The notes beneath the pieces were generated by a model. It did no database searches. It worked only from the letters and a program-made list of their open reading frames with translations, and had not been told where the DNA came from. A DNA stretch of 48,921 nt from Comamonadaceae bacterium (GTDB taxonomy: Bacteria > Pseudomonadota > Gammaproteobacteria > Burkholderiales > Burkholderiaceae_C). Where the stretch lies: contig VIKI01000083.1 of NCBI GenBank assembly GCA_008080595.1, positions 1 to 48,921 of the forward strand. Direction: 5' to 3'. Each line of letters begins with the position of its first letter. The first letter of the stretch is position 1. The translations under genes and the position numbers were made by a program. Positions 6,921-34,369 of the stretch are shown here, in pieces.

Positions 6921-8864
6921 ATGAGTACCCCAAGTCCACCCCCTGAAAAATCAGCCACCTCATTGACGGCCCGCGCCCTGCGCCTTGCCTTGTTTCGCAT
7001 CGGGCTGGTATCGGTGTGCGCTGGCCTGGTTTCGTATTACGTCAATCAAATGTCGATTGAAGACGATGTACGCAAGCGGCTGGTGCTGTCGGTGGAGCAA
7101 ACCTTGCAGCGTGAATCCCTGCCGTTTCAAGAGATCATGGACGCGCAACGCAATTTTCTGGCCGAGTTCAAGGACATCTATGCCCAGCCGGATGAAAAGC
7201 AAGCACTGGTGCGCGATTTCGATCACATCTTTTATCGCCACGAAGATGGCTCCTACACCCAGCGCCCAGGTTTGTTTGAAGGCCAGGCGCTGCCAGATGG
7301 GCGGCGCTTCAAGGAAATGTCGGCCACCTATGCCCCCGACATGGCACCCACCGACGACACCAAGGCGCGATTTGCCCTGTCTTACATCCTGTCTCACAAA
7401 TACGGCAGCAGCGCCAAGGGGCGTTTGTTCAATTTCTATGGCGTGGTGCCTGAGAAGGGTTTCCCGATCTTTCAGGCGCAGGACATTGCCAAGGTGTTTA
7501 CCTACTCCGGCCCGGACGCACTCAAGCTCGAGACCTTCGAGTTTTACCAACGGGGTTTTGCTTCCGCCAGCCATGACCCTTTTTTTACGCTGATGTATTG
7601 GGATCCGTCCAACAAAGCCTGGATGACGACCATCGCCACACCGGATGTGGCCGATGCGTCTGGCCAACACAAAATAATGGCCTGTGTGGATGTGCTGTTG
7701 GACGAGTTGATGACTCGCACTGCCAAACCGTATCTGCCGGGCGCACATAGCACCCTGTTTCTGGCAGATGCCGACGGAACACTGATCTATCACCCGCAGT
7801 TTCTGGAATCCATCAAAAGCACGGAAGGCAAGGCCTCCATCAAGTCGCTCAACATCACCAACGACTATCCCCTGCTCCAAGCGGCCCGAGACCTGTCACC
7901 AGGCAAAGCCAGACTGGTTGAAACACACGACGACATCATGGCCATGGGGCTGATTCCCGGCACACCCTGGGTGCTGGCCGTGCACTACCCCAGGGCCTTG
8001 ATGATCCCCTCGATCATTGAGAATTTGGTGATTCTGGCCGCGCTTGGCCTGGTCACCTTGCTGGTTGAAATCTTTGTACTGCGCTCAATTCTCCAGAACC
8101 AGGTGGCGCTACCCCTGTCTCGCCTGATCCAGGCCACACGCACGGTCAGGCTGTTCAAGGAACGCCTGAACCACGATGTCCTGCCCATTCAATCCGCCGA
8201 TGAAATTGGCGAACTTGCACGGGAGTTTTCTCAAATGGCAGATCACATCTACGAAGCGCACGAGCAATTGGAGAGCAAGGTTCAGGAGCGCACCGCCGAA
8301 CTTGAAGCGGCGAACCGTCAACTGCAGGCACTGTCCAGCACCGATGGCTTGACCGGTATTGCCAACCGCCGCCGTTTCGATGAGGTGCTGGAGACGGAAT
8401 GGCAACGTGCTCAGCGTGCCGGTGGTTTTTTGTCGCTGGCCATCGCTGATGTGGATTGGTTCAAAAGGTATAACGACCACTACGGCCATCAGGCGGGCGA
8501 TGATTGCCTGCGCAGTGTGGTCAACGCGCTGCAATCGAATGTCCTGCGGGCTGGCGACTTGGTGGCCCGGTATGGAGGAGAGGAGTTTGCCGTGATCAGC
8601 ACATCGGTGGACAGAGCGCATGCGCTGGAATTTGCCCAAAGGCTGTGTAGCGCCGTACAAGCCAGGGCTTTGCCACACACAGCCTCGCCGCTGGGGTATG
8701 TCAGCATAAGCATCGGCATGGCCGTGACCCAACCGGTGCATGGCAGTGATGCAGCAGGCTTGTTGAAAAAAGCGGATGAGGCACTCTACCGAGCCAAGGC
8801 ACAAGGGCGAAATCAGGCGGTTCTGGCCGAGGATGAACAAAACCCTGAGGGAAATCAGTCTTGA
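6921..8864 (+). CDS. Membrane sensor diguanylate cyclase (periplasmic sensor + HAMP-like + GGDEF)
   Basis: 647 aa; C-terminal RAGDLVARYGGEEFAVIS shows an intact GGEEF active site and an RxxD (RAGD) I-site; N-terminal TM segment. Confidence 0.88.
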   Translation: MSTPSPPPEKSATSLTARALRLALFRIGLVSVCAGLVSYYVNQMSIEDDVRKRLVLSVEQTLQRESLPFQEIMDAQRNFLAEFKDIYAQPDEKQALVRDFDHIFYRHEDGSYTQRPGLFEGQALPDGRRFKEMSATYAPDMAPTDDTKARFALSYILSHKYGSSAKGRLFNFYGVVPEKGFPIFQAQDIAKVFTYSGPDALKLETFEFYQRGFASASHDPFFTLMYWDPSNKAWMTTIATPDVADASGQHKIMACVDVLLDELMTRTAKPYLPGAHSTLFLADADGTLIYHPQFLESIKSTEGKASIKSLNITNDYPLLQAARDLSPGKARLVETHDDIMAMGLIPGTPWVLAVHYPRALMIPSIIENLVILAALGLVTLLVEIFVLRSILQNQVALPLSRLIQATRTVRLFKERLNHDVLPIQSADEIGELAREFSQMADHIYEAHEQLESKVQERTAELEAANRQLQALSSTDGLTGIANRRRFDEVLETEWQRAQRAGGFLSLAIADVDWFKRYNDHYGHQAGDDCLRSVVNALQSNVLRAGDLVARYGGEEFAVISTSVDRAHALEFAQRLCSAVQARALPHTASPLGYVSISIGMAVTQPVHGSDAAGLLKKADEALYRAKAQGRNQAVLAEDEQNPEGNQS

Positions 8865-11370: not shown

Positions 11371-12186
11371 GTGACTACTTCACCGATCAGTTTTTCCCCA
11401 GCCCAGCCAGCACCATCCATGCGCTCATGGCTATGGCGACAGTTGTGGGTGATGGGGCTGGCCATCTGCGGGCTATTGAGTGGTGGGCTGGCGTTGGCCA
11501 CACCACCCGAGAGGTTTGTTCTGGGTGCCGATGCCGACCCCAGTGCTTATGGCAGCCGCTGGACCGTGCTGGGCTATACCGAGGCTTTCCGGCGTCTGGG
11601 TATTCCTTTGCAGATCAACCACTATCCGCTGGCGCGTCGGACGGCACTGGGCGATACCGGTGAGATCGACGGTGATGCGGGTCGAATCTATGAGTATGGT
11701 GCAGCCCATCCCAACCTGGTGCGGGTGGAGGAGGCTTTCACCGAGCACAGTTTCGCGCTGTATTCGGCATTGCCAGAGTCGCGTTTGCGTGGTCTGGAAG
11801 ACCTGCGCTCATCCAACCTAACCGTCGAATTCCGGCGTGGCATCTTTTTCTGTGAAAACACGCTCAAACGCTGGGTGCCAGCGGAGCGGTTGTCAGATAT
11901 TTCCAGCGAAGAACAGGGCTTGAGCAAGCTTCTTGCCGGACGCACCGATTTGTATTGCGAACTCGAATATCCGGTGCGCACGGTACTGAATTCACCGCCC
12001 TTCAAGGGCGAGACGCGCATTCGACCCGTGCTTAACCTGGGCACCATCAAGACCTATCCCTATCTGCATCGCAAACACGCCGACTTGGCACCACGCCTGG
12101 CAGCCGTGCTCAAGCAGATGAAAGCCGAAGGTCTGATCGAAGCCTATCGCCTGCAGGTTGAAAAAGAACTGGGTTGGACACGCTAA
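11371..12186 (+). CDS. Periplasmic substrate-binding (SBP_bac_3-like) protein
   Basis: 271 aa, hydrophobic N-terminal segment followed by a SBP3-like domain. Confidence 0.6.
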   Translation: MTTSPISFSPAQPAPSMRSWLWRQLWVMGLAICGLLSGGLALATPPERFVLGADADPSAYGSRWTVLGYTEAFRRLGIPLQINHYPLARRTALGDTGEIDGDAGRIYEYGAAHPNLVRVEEAFTEHSFALYSALPESRLRGLEDLRSSNLTVEFRRGIFFCENTLKRWVPAERLSDISSEEQGLSKLLAGRTDLYCELEYPVRTVLNSPPFKGETRIRPVLNLGTIKTYPYLHRKHADLAPRLAAVLKQMKAEGLIEAYRLQVEKELGWTR

Positions 12187-12310
12187 CGCACAGGTTCTGC
12201 GCACTGGTCTGTCCTTCGCCACGGGGTGGCTCTGTGTGGCCGCCACGCGCTGTTTGAAGGCACGCTGGAAATGGCCTGATTTTTTTGGTTACAGGCTGTT
12301 TTTAGAAATT

Positions 12311-12964
12311 TCAATGGGCGATGTGCAGGCCACTCCACCCCGTCCACCCCGCCGCCAGCATCAGCAACACCCCTACGCCGCGCCCGATGGCGACTTGCGC
12401 TGCCGGGTTGCGGCGCAGCCACTGCTGGAGGCTGCCCGCACCCCAGGCAAAGCTGCCGTAAATCAGGATTTGTGTGCTGGCGATGATCAGGCCCATCAGC
12501 ACCGCTTGCGCCCCCAGCGGGCCGTAGTCGGGCCGCACAAACTGCGGGAACACCGCCACCATGAACACATAGGCTTTCGGGTTCATCAGGCAAGACATGG
12601 CCCCGCGCCAGACGGTTTGCCGCACCGTCAGCCGCGGCACTGCACCCACCTCACCCAGCGCCGCCGCCCCACGCCACAGGCTCCAGCCGATCCAGGCAAT
12701 GTAGAGCGAACCTGCCAGCAACAGCACGGTAAATGCCAGCGGGTACAGCGTCAGCAGCAGACCCAGGCCCAGCGTGGCCATGACCACATGCAGCATGCCG
12801 CCGCCCACAATACCGGCCACCGCCGCCAGCCCCAGTTTGCGCCCACCCGCCAGCGCACTGGCCACCACATAAGCCATGTCCATGCCGGGCACGGCGATGA
12901 TGCCCAGCACCATCAGGGTAAACAGCCAGAGGTGGCTGGTGTGGGTCAAAAGCAAGTTGTCCAT
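12311..12964 (-). CDS. LysE/RhtB-family exporter
   Basis: 217 aa, hydrophobic, MVLGIIAVPGMDMAYVVASALAGGRKLGLAAVAGIVGG and CLMNPKAYVFMVAVFPQF motifs. Confidence 0.85.
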   Translation of the reverse strand: MDNLLLTHTSHLWLFTLMVLGIIAVPGMDMAYVVASALAGGRKLGLAAVAGIVGGGMLHVVMATLGLGLLLTLYPLAFTVLLLAGSLYIAWIGWSLWRGAAALGEVGAVPRLTVRQTVWRGAMSCLMNPKAYVFMVAVFPQFVRPDYGPLGAQAVLMGLIIASTQILIYGSFAWGAGSLQQWLRRNPAAQVAIGRGVGVLLMLAAGWTGWSGLHIAH

Positions 12965-14892: not shown

Positions 14893-16494
14893 ATGACCCA
14901 CACCGCCCCACGCATCATTCTGGCCACACTGAACGCCCGCTACATTCACGCCTCGCTGGGCCTGCGCTACTTGCTGGCCAATCTGGATCGGCATGGTGGT
15001 GCGGGGCTGCGGGCCCAAACCGTGCTGCGTGAATACACCATCAGCCGTGCGCCGCAGGAAGTGGTGGCGGATTTGATCACCACGCTGGGAGCCGCGTCCG
15101 GCGAGGTACAGATCATCGGCTTTGGGGTTTACATCTGGAACGTGACACAAACCCTTGAGGTGATCCGCCTGCTCAAAGCCGCCCGGCCCGATGCCCGGCT
15201 GGTACTGGGTGGGCCAGAGGTCAGCCACGAGGTGGATCAGCAGCCCATCACCCAGCTGGCCGACCATGTCATCACCGGCTGGGGTGATGTGAGCTTTGCC
15301 AAGCTGTGCCGTGCGCTGCTCGACGGCCCGCAACCGCTGATGAAAGTGATCTCCGGCGAGCAGCCCGCGCTGACCGAGATTGCGCTGCCCTATACCGAGT
15401 ACAGCGATGCGGATCTGGCGCACCGCCTGCTGTACGTGGAAGCCTCGCGTGGTTGCCCGTTCAAATGCGAGTTTTGCCTGAGCTCACTGGACAAGACTGC
15501 CTGGGGCTTTGAACTTGATCGGGTGCTGCTGGCATTGGATGGCCTGTACCGGCGCGGTGCCCGCAACTTCAAGTTTGTGGATCGCACCTTCAACCTGAAG
15601 ATGGATCATTCGGTGCGTATCTTGCAGTTTTTTCTGGATCGGCTGCCCGCTGCTGATGCTCCCCAAAGTGAGCCGCTGTCCCTGCATTTTGAAGTTATCC
15701 CAGACCATTTGCCAGAGCGTCTGCGCACGATGCTGGCCCAGTTCCCCCCTGGGGTGTTGCAACTGGAGGTGGGGGTGCAGAGTTTTAATCCGACCGTGCA
15801 GCACACCATCTCGCGCCGCCAGGACAATACCGCGACCGAGGCCAACCTGCGCTGGTTGCTGGACCACAGCCACGCGCACCTGCATGCCGACCTGATCTTT
15901 GGCCTGCCGGGCGAGACGCTTCAGAGTTTTGCCGATGGTTTTGACCGCTTGCTGGCCCTTGACCCGCACGAGATTCAGTTAGGCATTTTGAAGCGTCTGC
16001 GTGGTACACCCATTGCCCGGCACACCGAAGCCCATGGCATGGTGTACGCCACCGAGCCGCCTTACACCGTACAGCACACCGCTGTGGTCGATGCGGCCAC
16101 GCTCCAGCGCTTTGCCCGTTTCGCGCGGTATTGGGACTTGCTGGCCAACTCCGGGCGCTTTGCCCACACGCTGGTGCTGTTGCTGCAGCACATGCCGCAA
16201 GCCTCGGCCTTCTGGCGATTCATGGCCTTGTCTGACTGGCTGTGGCAGCACCTGGATGCCACCCACAAGCTGACCCCCGAGGTGCTGGTGGATGCCTTGT
16301 TTGAACACTTGAGCGCCCATATGCCGCCAGACACGGTGCGCCAGGCCTTGCTGGCCGACTACATGGCCAGCGGTGCGCGGGCCAACCCGAAAACCTTGCA
16401 GGGCTTGTTGCCACGGCAAGCTCCGGCCAGCCCCAGGTCGGCGAGAACGCTGGCGCTCAGACAAGATCGGCATCGTCAAGCGTCATTGGTCTGA
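14893..16494 (+). CDS. B12-binding-domain radical SAM protein (DUF4080-like)
   Basis: 533 aa; N-terminal Rossmann-like B12-binding-type region, YVEASRGCPFKCEFCLSS (CxxxCxxC) radical SAM motif. Confidence 0.9.
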   Translation: MTHTAPRIILATLNARYIHASLGLRYLLANLDRHGGAGLRAQTVLREYTISRAPQEVVADLITTLGAASGEVQIIGFGVYIWNVTQTLEVIRLLKAARPDARLVLGGPEVSHEVDQQPITQLADHVITGWGDVSFAKLCRALLDGPQPLMKVISGEQPALTEIALPYTEYSDADLAHRLLYVEASRGCPFKCEFCLSSLDKTAWGFELDRVLLALDGLYRRGARNFKFVDRTFNLKMDHSVRILQFFLDRLPAADAPQSEPLSLHFEVIPDHLPERLRTMLAQFPPGVLQLEVGVQSFNPTVQHTISRRQDNTATEANLRWLLDHSHAHLHADLIFGLPGETLQSFADGFDRLLALDPHEIQLGILKRLRGTPIARHTEAHGMVYATEPPYTVQHTAVVDAATLQRFARFARYWDLLANSGRFAHTLVLLLQHMPQASAFWRFMALSDWLWQHLDATHKLTPEVLVDALFEHLSAHMPPDTVRQALLADYMASGARANPKTLQGLLPRQAPASPRSARTLALRQDRHRQASLV

Positions 16495-16602
16495 AAGTTT
16501 TTAAGACCATAATCGCCAAAGGTCTATTCACCCGGGTTGGACTCTGAGCAGGGTCAGAGGAGAAATTTCGGGGCCAATCACATTGTTGAAGGAAATGAAG
16601 CT

Positions 16603-17733
16603 ATGCGAATCATTCGGAAACTTCTTGCAGCGGTACTTTCATTGTCCGGTGTGCTGGCTATGGCGCAAACCGGTGTCACCGACAAGGAAATCCTGATTGG
16701 CCAGTTCGCCGCCATGAGCGGCCCGGCCGCACAGTTGGGTCAACGTATGCAGGTCGGCATGCAAGCGTATTTTGCGGCGGTGAATGCGCAGGGCGGTATC
16801 CATGGCCGCGCCATCAAACTGGTCACGCGCGACGATGGCTACGAGCCCGAAAAAGCCGTTGCTGCGGTGAAAGCACTGATTCAGGAAGACAAGGTGTTTG
16901 CCCTGGCCAGCGCGGTGGGTACCCCCACCGGGCTGGCGGCCTTGCCCATCGTGACCGAGCAGCAAGTGCCGCTGGTGGGCATGTTCACTGGCGCACAGGC
17001 CTTGCGTGAGCCGTTTCACAGGGAGATTTTTCATGTGCGGGCCAGTTATTTTGATGAAACCGAGCGCATCGTGCAGTACCTGACCACACTCGGAATCAAG
17101 AGAATTGCCGTGTTTTACCAAAACGACTCGTATGGCAAAGCCGGCCTGGAAGGTGTGGAACGCGCCATGACCAAACGCCAGCTCAAACCTGTCGCACTCG
17201 GTACGGTGGAGCGCAACAGCGTGGATGTGACCCAGGCCATGGCCAACATTTTGAAAGTGGAACCTGAAGCCATTGTGCAAATCAGTGCCTACAAATCCTG
17301 TGCCGCCTTCATCAAACAGGCCCGTGGCAAAGGGTTTAACGGACAGTTTTTTAATGTGAGTTTTGTCGGCTCCAGTGCGTTGGCACAAGAGCTGGGTGAT
17401 GCCGGTCAGGGCGTGGTGATCTCACAAGTGGTGCCGTTCCCGTTTGGTGCCAAAACGCCGATTGCGCGAGAGTACCAACAGCACATGCAGGCGGCGGGGC
17501 AAAAAGACTTTGACTTTTCCAGCATGGAGGGTTATCTGACAGCCCGTGTGCTGTCGGAAGGCCTGCGCCGTGCGGGCAAAACCCTGACCCGCGAAAGCCT
17601 GATCACCGGCCTGGAAAGTATGAACGATGTGAGCTTGGGCGGATTTACTGTCCACTACAGCGCCAAAGACCACCAGGGCTCCAATTACACGGATCTGACC
17701 TTCATTGGGCGCGGTGGCAAGTTCATGCATTAA
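16603..17733 (+). CDS. ABC transporter substrate-binding protein (branched-chain amino-acid/Peripla_BP_6 type)
   Basis: Signal peptide MRIIRKLLAAVLSLSGVLAMAQ, then GVTDKEILIGQFAAMSGPAAQLG and the LivJ-like fold sequence. Confidence 0.88.
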   Translation: MRIIRKLLAAVLSLSGVLAMAQTGVTDKEILIGQFAAMSGPAAQLGQRMQVGMQAYFAAVNAQGGIHGRAIKLVTRDDGYEPEKAVAAVKALIQEDKVFALASAVGTPTGLAALPIVTEQQVPLVGMFTGAQALREPFHREIFHVRASYFDETERIVQYLTTLGIKRIAVFYQNDSYGKAGLEGVERAMTKRQLKPVALGTVERNSVDVTQAMANILKVEPEAIVQISAYKSCAAFIKQARGKGFNGQFFNVSFVGSSALAQELGDAGQGVVISQVVPFPFGAKTPIAREYQQHMQAAGQKDFDFSSMEGYLTARVLSEGLRRAGKTLTRESLITGLESMNDVSLGGFTVHYSAKDHQGSNYTDLTFIGRGGKFMH

Positions 17734-27382: not shown

Positions 27383-27517
27383 GCGTCGAGATCAGAGGCT
27401 CCAAGCCTCCTCTTGCCGATATAACGGTGTACCGGATGCATGTACCCCAGCCCAACTCTGCTCCTGTTTGCCGGTTTCATACCCCTTGCCTATAATTTTG
27501 ATCAGGAGTGCCACCTT

Positions 27518-27739
27518 ATGAATACCACTGCCACCCAAACCATTGAACTGCCCGAAGAACTGGCATCCATGCTGCATGCAGAGGCCAGGCGCAGCCGCAA
27601 AACCATTGCGCAGTACGTGGCCCAGTTGCTGGAGGATCAAGCCGATGGACGTGAAGCCGCCAAGGTCATGAAGCGCATCAAAGAAGGCAAGGAAAAGGTT
27701 TACCCGGCTTCTGAAGTCTGGGCAAAGCATGGCATTTGA
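27518..27739 (+). CDS. RelB-like antitoxin
   Basis: MNTTATQTIELPEELASMLHAEARRSRKTIAQYVAQLLEDQADGREAAKVMKRIKEG..., with TATAAT box upstream (about 27491) and coupled to the next ORF. Confidence 0.75.
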   Translation: MNTTATQTIELPEELASMLHAEARRSRKTIAQYVAQLLEDQADGREAAKVMKRIKEGKEKVYPASEVWAKHGI

Positions 27740-27999
27740 TGGTGTGGCATCTCCATATTTCAGAAACCGCAGAAAAGCAGCTCTCGAAGCTCGACAAGGG
27801 CATTGAACGCAAAATCAGGAAGTACCTTGAAGAGGTTTGTGAGCTGGCAGACCCTGCCGACCGGGGCCATGCCCTCACCGGGCCATGGGCTGGGTTCCAC
27901 CGCTATCGGGTGGGACAGATCCGCATCATCACCCACATTGAGCGCCAGATCGTGACTGTGACCGTGGTCACCGTTGACCGCCGCGACTCGATTTATTAA
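27739..27999 (+). CDS. RelE/ParE-family toxin
   Basis: MVWHLHISETAEKQLSKLDKGIERKIRKYLEE...GPWAGFHRYRVGQIRIITHIERQIVTVTVVTVDRRDSIY; TGATG overlap with the antitoxin stop. Confidence 0.85.
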   Translation: MVWHLHISETAEKQLSKLDKGIERKIRKYLEEVCELADPADRGHALTGPWAGFHRYRVGQIRIITHIERQIVTVTVVTVDRRDSIY

Positions 28000-31379: not shown

Positions 31380-32777
31380 ATGCTCGTGAATATTGCGAAT
31401 GCAGACATTGAGCGCATCGTCCGGGCGGTGGTGCAGTCGATGGATCAGAGTCACCAGCCCGCGCTGACACCCGCCAGGGCGGCCAGCGCTGCACCTCTGC
31501 CGATGGGGGTGTTTGCCAGCCTGGATGATGCTGTGGCCGAGGCTGACAAGGCCTACCGACAGATGCGCAGTGTCGCCATGCGCAGCCTGGCAGTCGCCGC
31601 CATTCGCCAAGCCGGTGAGAAACACGCCCAGGAACTGGCCGAACTGGCGGTGGCCGAGACCGGCATGGGCCGGGTGGCGGACAAATTCACCAAAAACGTG
31701 GCGCAAGCCCGCCACACGCCTGGCGTGGAATGCCTGGTGCCGACCGTGCTCTCAGGCGACCATGGCTTGACGCTGATGGAAAACGCCGCCTGGGGCGTGA
31801 TTGCCTCGGTGACCCCGTCTACCAACCCGGCGGCCACGGTGATCAACAACGCCATCAGCATGATCGCCGCAGGCAACACCGTGGTGTTCGCGCCGCACCC
31901 TGCGGCCAAAGGCGTGTCGCAACGGGCGGTCACCTTGATCAATGAGGCTGTGGTGGCTGCGATTGCCACCGCGCAGCAACTGTTCAGCTACCCCGGCATC
32001 AACTTGCTGACCGTCACCGGCGGCGAAGCGGTGGTGGAAGAGGCTCGCAAACACACCGACAAACGGCTGATTGCGGCCGGTGCGGGCAACCCGCCGGTGG
32101 TGGTGGATGAAACCGCCAACATCGAAAAAGCCGGGCGCGACATTGTCTGGGGCGCCTCGTTTGACAACAACATCATCTGCGCCGACGAGAAAGAGGTGAT
32201 TGTGGTCGACTCGGTGGCCGACCGCCTCAAACAAGAGATGGCCAAACACAAGGCCGTGGAGTTGTCACAAGACCAGGCCAAGCAGCTGGTCGATCTGGTG
32301 CTGGGCAAGATTGGCCTGGACAACAAAGGCACGGTGAAACGCGAATGGGTCGGGCGGGATGCCGCCAAGATTGCCGCCGCCATTGGCCTGAACGTGCCGT
32401 CAGACACCAAGCTGCTGTTTGTCGAGACCGCAGCCAATCACCCGTTTGCGGTGACCGAGTTGATGATGCCTATTTTGCCGATCATCCGCGTCGCCAATGT
32501 CGACGACGCGATTGCCATGGCAGTCAAACTGGAGGGCGGCTGCAAACACACCGCCGCCATGCACTCGCGCAATCTGGACAACCTGGATCGCATGGCCAAT
32601 GAAATCAACACCAGCATTTTTGTCAAAAACGGGCCCTGCCTGGCGGGCCTGGGTTTTGGCGGCGAAGGCTGGACCAGCATGACCATCACCACCCCCACTG
32701 GCGAGGGCGTGACCTCGGCCCGCACCTTTGTGCGGCTGCGCCGCTGCGTGCTGGTGGACAACTTCAGGATTGTCTGA
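31380..32777 (+). CDS. eutE: CoA-acylating acetaldehyde dehydrogenase EutE, with apparent in-frame internal loss near 31957-31964
   Basis: 465 aa; RQAGEKHAQELAELAVAETGMGRV, SVTPSTNPAATVINNAISMIAAGNTVVFAPHP, FVKNGPCLAGLGFGGEGWTSMTITTPTGEGVTSARTFVRLRRC; N-terminal encapsulation-like helix. Confidence 0.93.
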   Translation: MLVNIANADIERIVRAVVQSMDQSHQPALTPARAASAAPLPMGVFASLDDAVAEADKAYRQMRSVAMRSLAVAAIRQAGEKHAQELAELAVAETGMGRVADKFTKNVAQARHTPGVECLVPTVLSGDHGLTLMENAAWGVIASVTPSTNPAATVINNAISMIAAGNTVVFAPHPAAKGVSQRAVTLINEAVVAAIATAQQLFSYPGINLLTVTGGEAVVEEARKHTDKRLIAAGAGNPPVVVDETANIEKAGRDIVWGASFDNNIICADEKEVIVVDSVADRLKQEMAKHKAVELSQDQAKQLVDLVLGKIGLDNKGTVKREWVGRDAAKIAAAIGLNVPSDTKLLFVETAANHPFAVTELMMPILPIIRVANVDDAIAMAVKLEGGCKHTAAMHSRNLDNLDRMANEINTSIFVKNGPCLAGLGFGGEGWTSMTITTPTGEGVTSARTFVRLRRCVLVDNFRIV

Positions 32778-32782
32778 ACACC

Positions 32783-32971
32783 ATGGCGTGTAATGCGTGT
32801 CACAGCAGCTGCGGGGATTGCGCTGAGGGCGGCATCACCTTCAAGCGTGTGCGGCGCGCACCCGTGGCGGATCGCCCGCCACAGCCTTTGGTGCTGAGCG
32901 AAGAGCGACAAACGCTATTGTTTTCAGAGCTTCCTGCGCAAGTAAAACAAGCGCCAGAGGCACAAAAATGA
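32783..32971 (+). CDS. 62-aa Cys-rich small protein of unknown function
   Basis: MACNACHSSCGDCAEGGITFKRVRRAPVADRPPQPLVLSEERQTLLFSELPAQVKQAPEAQK; CX2CX3CX2C; stop overlaps the eutA start as ATGA; C-terminal codons lie in a dispersed-repeat copy. Confidence 0.6.
   Translation: MACNACHSSCGDCAEGGITFKRVRRAPVADRPPQPLVLSEERQTLLFSELPAQVKQAPEAQK
32909..32968 (+). repeat. Related dispersed repeat copy inside the 62-aa ORF
   Basis: ACGCTATTGTTTTCAGAGCTTCCTGCGCAAGTAAAACAAGCGCCAGAGGCACAAAAA; GCTATT...TGCGCAAG...AAGCGCCAGAGGC layout. Confidence 0.55.
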
Positions 32972-34369
32972 CTAAAAAGTGCTTGCGCAGCATCGGCATA
33001 GACCTGGGCACGACCACGTCGCAGGTGATTTTTTCCGAACTGGAAATTGTCAATACCGCCGGGCCGACCAGCGTGCCGCACTACGAGTTCTCCCGGCGCG
33101 ACATTGTGTATGTCAGCCCGGTGATCTTCACGCCGTTTGTGGCCGATGGCAATGTGGATGTGGCGGCGCTGGAGGCGTTTATTCGCCAGCAATACGCGCT
33201 GGCCGGGTTGTCGATACAAGAGGTGGAGTCAGGCGCGATCATCATCACCGGTGAAACCTCCAAGGTGCGCAACGCGCGGGATGCCGTGATGTCGCTGGCC
33301 GCTGGCCTGGGGGACTTTGTGGTGGCCACGGCCGGGCCGCATCTGGAGTCGGTGATCGCAGGGCGCGGCTCTGGGGCGGGTGCCTATTCCGAGAAAAATG
33401 CCGCCCGTGTGCTCAACATCGATGTGGGTGGCGGTACCTCAAACTACGCGGTGTTTGAGGGTGGCCGGGTGCTCGATACCGCGTGTCTGAACGTGGGCGG
33501 GCATTTGCTGCAAACCGACGCTACGGGGCGCGTCAGCACCGTGCATGCGCCAGCCGCCCTCATCTTGCGCGAGTTGCTGGGGGCGGATCGCGCCGCCTCA
33601 ACGCTGTCCACCCAGGACTTGCAACAGGTGGCCGAGCGCATGGCAGCGCTGATTCTTGAAGTGATGCAGGCGCGGCCTTCCCCACTGGCGCAGCAGCTGC
33701 TGATGACCGATGCGTTGCGGGAGGCTTATCGGTTTGACGCGGTTTTTATCTCTGGCGGGGTGGGCGAATGTATGCAGCGCCCAAGCGCGGAGTCGCCCTA
33801 CCGCTTTGGTGACATTGGCCCGCTGCTGGCGCAAGCGTTTCCCGGTACGTGCACCAGCGCAAACCCTGCGGGCCACGGTGATTGGTGCCGGAGCCCACAC
33901 CTTGACGCTGTCGGGCAGCACGGTCTGGAACAAGTACCAGGGCGTGCCGCTGCGCAATGTGCCGGTGCTGCACCCACGCCTGCGCTGGCGCGAGTTTCGC
34001 CCCGGCGCACTGTCTGCGGCCTGGCAAGAAGCGGTCAAAGGCCATGACCTGGATGCAGTGGGTGATGTGTACGCGCTGGCCCTGCCGGACGATCTTCCGG
34101 TGACCTGCCAGACGGTCTGGCAAGCCGCGCTGGAATTGCAAAGTTTTGCGCGGGCCAAGCCCGGCAGCACGCATCCGCTGGTGGCGGTGACCTCGCAGGA
34201 TGTCGGCAAGGCGCTCGGTATGGAGCTGTTTCGGCTGGTGCCTGGGCGAGAGCTGCTGATCATCGACGAGGTGCACACCCGCGCTGGCGACTATCTTGAC
34301 ATTGGCAAGAGCTACTTCAACGGCGGCACGATTCCGATCACCGTCAAGTCGCTCGCTTTTCCTCATTGA
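32968..34369 (+). pseudogene. eutA: EutA, ethanolamine ammonia-lyase reactivase, frame-disrupted near 33838-33845
   Basis: ORF 32968-34047 (SIGIDLGTTTSQVIFSELEI...YRFGDIGPLLAQAF) continues in the other frame in ORF 33710-34369 (PVRAPAQTLRATVIGAGAHTLTLSGSTVW...GGTIPITVKSLAFPH). Confidence 0.9.

Follow-up and report, generated by a model that had tools for sequence, protein, structure and literature searches.

A cysteine-rich microprotein encoded between eutE and eutA, a candidate appendage of the EutA reactivase

Introduction

In most proteobacterial eut operons the eutE gene is followed by eutJ. Cysteine-based metal sites are found in B12-linked microcompartment proteins, and the Cys-rich motif of EutT reads HX11CCX2C. 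A different arrangement, CX2CX3CXnC with the fourth cysteine about 27 positions on, forms the N-terminal [4Fe-4S] motif of Mo/W-bisPGD enzymes. The ASKHA-type Fe-S activators (2-hydroxyglutaryl-CoA dehydratase component A and the RACE/RamA corrinoid activators) join an ASKHA ATPase to a Cys-rich element whose spacing is other than CX2CX3CX2C, and act on the cofactor of another enzyme. EutA exchanges the damaged cofactor, cobalamin, on ethanolamine ammonia-lyase (PMC9426561), and PduS and PduT are Fe-S proteins of microcompartments (PMC4207490). The literature we searched describes no Cys-rich part of EutA. Here we analyze a small Cys-rich open reading frame (ORF) lying between eutE and eutA in a 48,921-nucleotide stretch of DNA from a Comamonadaceae bacterium, referred to below as the window.

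Results

Family matches place the small ORF in the middle of a eut operon. The operon starts with an AraC-type regulator, a ParE-like toxin gene, eutP, eutQ and a Pta-type phosphotransacetylase, continues with a BMC shell gene, eutN, eutE, the small ORF, eutA, eutB and eutC, and ends with a eutL-like shell gene, a BMC gene, pduS-like and pduT-like genes, an ethanolamine permease and acetate kinase. A gene of the cobalamin adenosyltransferase family (PF01923) is located elsewhere in the source genome, outside the operon, and no Rfam elements were detected in the operon region. The ParE-type toxin gene (27736-27999, within the interval 27440-27999) sits between the AraC-type regulator and eutP; a 99-aa ORF that precedes and overlaps it is possibly its antitoxin. 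The coordinates of the small ORF, its parts and its neighbors are collected in Table 1.

Table 1. Position of the small ORF, its segments and the adjacent genes in the window.
Feature	Position	Strand	Evidence
Small Cys-rich ORF, 62 aa + stop	32783..32971	+	Translation; same-position orthologues
CX2CX3CX2C motif, Cys codons at 32789, 32798, 32810, 32819	32789..32821	+	Invariant C3, C6, C10, D12, C13, G17, F20
Conserved N-terminal microdomain (N22), codons 1-22, MxCxxCxxxCxDCxxxGxxF	32783..32848	+	Omega 0.143; EutA fusion in L065, L067
Variable tail, codons 23-62	32849..32968	+	Omega 0.67, indistinguishable from neutral
ATGA, small-ORF stop overlapping eutA start	32968..32971	+	Overlap in all 8 separate-ORF loci
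eutE, acetaldehyde dehydrogenase, upstream neighbor	31380..32777	+	NF011927, 652 bits vs cut-off 403
eutA, EAL reactivase, two frames in window	32968..34369	+	PF06277, matched as 3-291 and 298-474

The small ORF encodes the sequence MACNACHSSCGDCAEGGITFKRVRRAPVADRPPQPLVLSEERQTLLFSELPAQVKQAPEAQK*. Its cysteines occupy residues 3, 6, 10 and 13, confirming the predicted CX2CX3CX2C spacing, and an Asp lying between the third and fourth of them is invariant. The motif occurs a single time in all six frames of the window, and we found no second copy of the small ORF in the source genome. The placement given in the original prediction also agrees with the DNA: five bases (acacc) separate the eutE TGA, which ends at 32777, from the small-ORF ATG, and the small-ORF TGA (32969-32971) overlaps the eutA ATG (32968-32970). 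The sequence AGAGG at 32956-32960, inside the tail of the small ORF, is able to serve as the ribosome-binding site of eutA. The eutA gene itself is broken in the window: compared with loci L059, L060 and L061, a 26-base deletion at 33833-33842, near 33840, splits it into two frames. This may be a real pseudogene or an assembly error, and because of the frameshift the pair of small ORF and EutA may not work in this genome.

The 62-aa protein matches no Pfam or NCBIfam family, in line with the view that it is not a standard Eut protein. Relaxed searches of these libraries with relatives of the small ORF gave nothing meaningful, including a TIGR03290 match of one relative at E 0.12. No relatives were found by sequence in the PDB, and plasmid and phage sequences gave no match. 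Three known types of protein were considered and rejected. Bacterial 4Fe-4S ferredoxins have the spacing CX2CX2CX3C(P), unlike the small ORF, which also lacks a match in Pfam and NCBIfam. The CXXCH of c-type cytochromes is mimicked by CNACH in the window, but the orthologues read CQTCR, CNSCR and CVACR, so that the His is not conserved. A remnant of EutJ is not indicated either, as the small-ORF region has no EutJ match; EutJ follows eutE in L068, L070, L074-L097 and L127 and does not do so in the ORF-bearing clade.

The loci of relatives were found by a eutE scan of genome contigs. The same scan with the 62-aa protein returned no matches; the likely reason is that the variable tail contributes half of its peptide patterns. 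The proposed search for a conserved ORF between eutE and eutA of related loci was successful: an intact orthologue occupies this position in a further six eut loci, five from Rhodoferax or Burkholderiales metagenome-assembled genomes (MAGs) and one from a MAG labelled Limnohabitans (L066, 76 aa), which makes seven with the window. In all seven the gap to eutE is 5 bp. Within the genus of the window, EutA is encoded in 9 of 90 genomes, seven of which have a microcompartment-type locus. The small ORF is intact in six of these seven (the window included) and reduced in the seventh, L064 (= G102), to a 21-aa remnant, MACDTCRSAGGNGSDRPRPLA, in which the third and fourth cysteines are lost. Since eutA is intact in L064, the motif is dispensable there. 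In all eight separate-ORF loci, the decayed one included, the small-ORF stop and the eutA start overlap by four bases (ATGA, GTGA or TTGA), which makes the predicted coupling to eutA probable.

In two further MAGs the motif is not a separate ORF: it is fused in frame to the N-terminus of EutA (MGCVACRSHCEDCSDNGLSFGGRARRTPARRLHSIGIDLGTTTSQ). The fused ORF of L065 has 501 aa, of which residues 1-22 are the motif and the remainder is EutA; that of L067 is alike but is cut by the contig end. The two MAGs come from different projects and their DNA differs by about 7%, which makes it very improbable that both carry the same assembly error. The fused genes have no in-frame alternative ATG or GTG before the EutA core, and just a TTG two codons ahead of it. 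When the N22 profile built from the separate ORFs is aligned with the fused EutA, it matches residues 1-22 with an hhalign probability of 96%, and M1, C3, C6, C10, D12, C13, G17 and F20 are invariant over eight sequences. The fusion suggests a physical partnership of the peptide with EutA. What looks like a fusion of EutA with EutB in L061 (about 8680-8777) is artefactual, produced by a run of Ns in the contig.

A tree of EutE, EutB and EutA unites all ORF-bearing loci, which are few and all come from MAGs, in one clade (support 100), and groups the fused pair L065 and L067 with the unfused L066 (support 100). As read from these sequences, the simplest history would be an ancestral separate ORF followed by one fusion; a fused ancestor with two splits would be less simple.

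The coding sequence of the small ORF is constrained unevenly. For codons 1-22 of nine sequences, omega is 0.143, with lnL of -375.85 against -402.25 at omega = 1. Both fits left branch lengths free; the first also left kappa free, whereas the second set it to 2.0, so the resulting difference (2 x delta lnL of about 53) is approximate but large. The four closest sequences alone yield omega 0.23 for the same codons (lnL -192.98 vs -198.54 at omega 1). The tail of these four gives 0.67 (lnL -551.79 vs -552.95), which is not distinguishable from 1; for comparison, omega of eutE is 0.06. Protein-level purifying selection thus acts only on the first ~22 residues, and the other 40 look neutral: the expectation of a non-neutral substitution pattern holds for the head of the protein and fails for its tail. 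Together with the position conserved in other loci, the strong selection on codons 1-22 shows, in agreement with the original prediction, that the small ORF is a real gene and not a chance ORF.

The tails of L062 and L063 each contain an inserted repeat element, and the ORF is still open up to the overlap with eutA. This points to two constraints, one on residues 1-22 as protein and the other on the openness of the tail, which is probably kept for coupling to eutA. The contig of L062, analyzed also as L024, has this repeat element with its AATTGGGNTCNGANCCCAATT palindromes at three places (12037-12331, 16223-16517 and 17632-17712): within the tail of the small ORF, in the interval from eutC to eutL, and behind the second BMC gene.

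The openness of the neutral tail in every locus, even after the repeat insertion, could also mean that the small ORF is a translational coupler only, feeding ribosomes into the overlapping eutA start by a sequence that is itself immaterial. The decayed ORF of L064, which retains the 5-bp gap and the ATGA overlap, agrees with this. However, such a coupler explains the tail and not the motif: it is already contradicted for residues 1-22 by their strong protein-level selection, and the fused EutA, for which coupling is unneeded, still has the motif. As an account of the whole ORF we give it little credence.

Among the loci and genomes covered, the motif is restricted to the one clade. When all 80 EUT loci were scanned in six frames, it turned up in no other plausible coding context, and neither the EutA proteins of the other EUT loci nor the products of non-BMC EutA-like genes have it at their N-termini. 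Most other EUT loci have eutJ after eutE. The EutA loci of the order, family and phylum samples provided no further cases. Three weak profile matches outside the clade among 369 genomes of the class (E 2e-4 to 8e-3) were rejected as chance, because their contexts are unrelated and their frames short or interrupted; a match in L006 (E 1e-3), located among unrelated genes and interrupted by a stop in its frame, was also rejected. Loci L073 and L112 have the same gene layout as the window, including pduS, and no motif: eutA directly follows eutE. Therefore, pduS does not track with the motif.

These two loci bear on the role that had been proposed for the protein, a free ferredoxin-like or general cargo protein in the setting of PduS and PduT. 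A free-standing small compartment protein with a redox or metal-handling function, such as a carrier of electrons or metal that works with PduS/PduT or with a cobalamin reductase, would fit the four closely spaced cysteines, the presence of both pduS and pduT in the operon and the separate ORF of most loci, and the EutA fusion would then be incidental, arising from adjacency. Yet the fusion is retained in two diverged genomes, the Cys segment has no similarity to any ferredoxin family, and L073 and L112 do without the motif. We regard such a role as unlikely, and as less probable than a partnership with EutA.

The body of EutA is predicted by AlphaFold2 to adopt an ASKHA-type ATPase fold (mean pLDDT 84). 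The modelled fold matches those of PPX/GppA, MreB, EutJ and 2-hydroxyglutaryl-CoA dehydratase component A (1hux). Sequence comparison with solved structures links EutA only to MreB, and weakly. The N-terminus of the modelled body is flexible and could carry an appendage. The peptide alone gave no confident structure (pLDDT 58), and residues 1-23 of the fused EutA have pLDDT below 50. The alignment was shallow and a bound metal was not modelled, so the low confidence of the Cys segment is no evidence against a metal site.

Residues 1-22 might instead act as a tag for cargo or assembly, bringing EutA or the small protein into the shell in the manner of an encapsulation peptide. Their N-terminal place on the fused EutA is suggestive of this, as is the targeting of EutC and EutE by short N-terminal peptides (PMC12487888). 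As a separate ORF, however, the peptide cannot tag EutA in cis. For residues 1-28 AlphaFold2 predicts no helix, albeit at low confidence, whereas known encapsulation tags are amphipathic helices, of which four invariant cysteines are not a feature. We regard a tag as quite improbable.

Discussion

The small ORF is, in our somewhat favored reading, a lineage-specific Cys4 microdomain of the EutA reactivase, encoded as a separate subunit in most genomes of the clade. It would be a detachable element, carrying a metal or thiols, of the machinery that reactivates a B12 enzyme. The overlap of its stop with the eutA start makes it probable that the two products are made together, and in two genomes the microdomain is the covalent N-terminus of EutA. 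A conserved Cys4 element found in some genomes as the N-terminus of EutA and in others as the product of an overlapping upstream gene is best read as part of the reactivase. Residues 1-22 would fold around a metal ion or a small Fe-S cluster held by the four cysteines and dock on EutA, or on a complex of EutBC and EutA, supporting cobalamin exchange. The ~40-residue tail would serve as a linker; the one constraint seen on it is that its frame remains open as far as the overlapping eutA start. The spacing of the cysteines is compatible with the predicted metal or Fe-S binding; their invariance suggests a bound metal ion or cluster, which may be Zn(Cys)4 or [4Fe-4S], and neither has a clear lead.

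Compared with described systems, the closest relation is to EutA (PF06277) itself, of which the motif is the N-terminus in L065 and L067, while elsewhere it is encoded directly upstream, overlapping eutA; the separate ORF of the window is related to EutA by adjacency and overlap only. The other EutA proteins that we fetched differ in starting a few residues before the SVGIDIGTTT core, without the Cys4 segment. In three loci (L035, L036 and L044) EutA-like proteins have long N-terminal extensions. Some of these contain many His and Asp residues, as does HTHDGMEADHDHDHFDGG in L044, and they may represent a second metal-binding appendage in the EutA family. EutT and PduS/PduT differ from the small ORF in spacing, length and neighbors, and the Pfam and NCBIfam searches link it to neither. 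The Mo/W-bisPGD motif shares the CX2CX3C spacing of the first three cysteines, but the fourth cysteine of the small ORF follows three positions on and not ~27, and we found no other similarity.

The ASKHA-type Fe-S activators resemble the pair of EutA and peptide in combining an ASKHA ATPase with a Cys-rich element and in acting on the cofactor of another enzyme. They differ in that no sequence relation of the Cys segment was found and in that the cluster here is putative. It is conceivable, though we would put it as a long shot, that the four cysteines hold an Fe-S cluster and that EutA with the peptide, in addition to its exchange of damaged cobalamin, works as a reductive reactivator driven by ATP. 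Electrons, perhaps from PduS, would then be passed to cob(II)alamin inside the compartment, and the principle of RACE would have been built independently on the EutA ATPase.

Read as an appendage of EutA, the small ORF is a microprotein with a constrained part of just ~22 residues, of a kind missed by annotation libraries. The conserved Cys4 element occurs apart from EutA in some genomes and joined to it in others, which points directly to its partner and makes it an easily tested handle on how B12 enzymes may be revived inside microcompartments.
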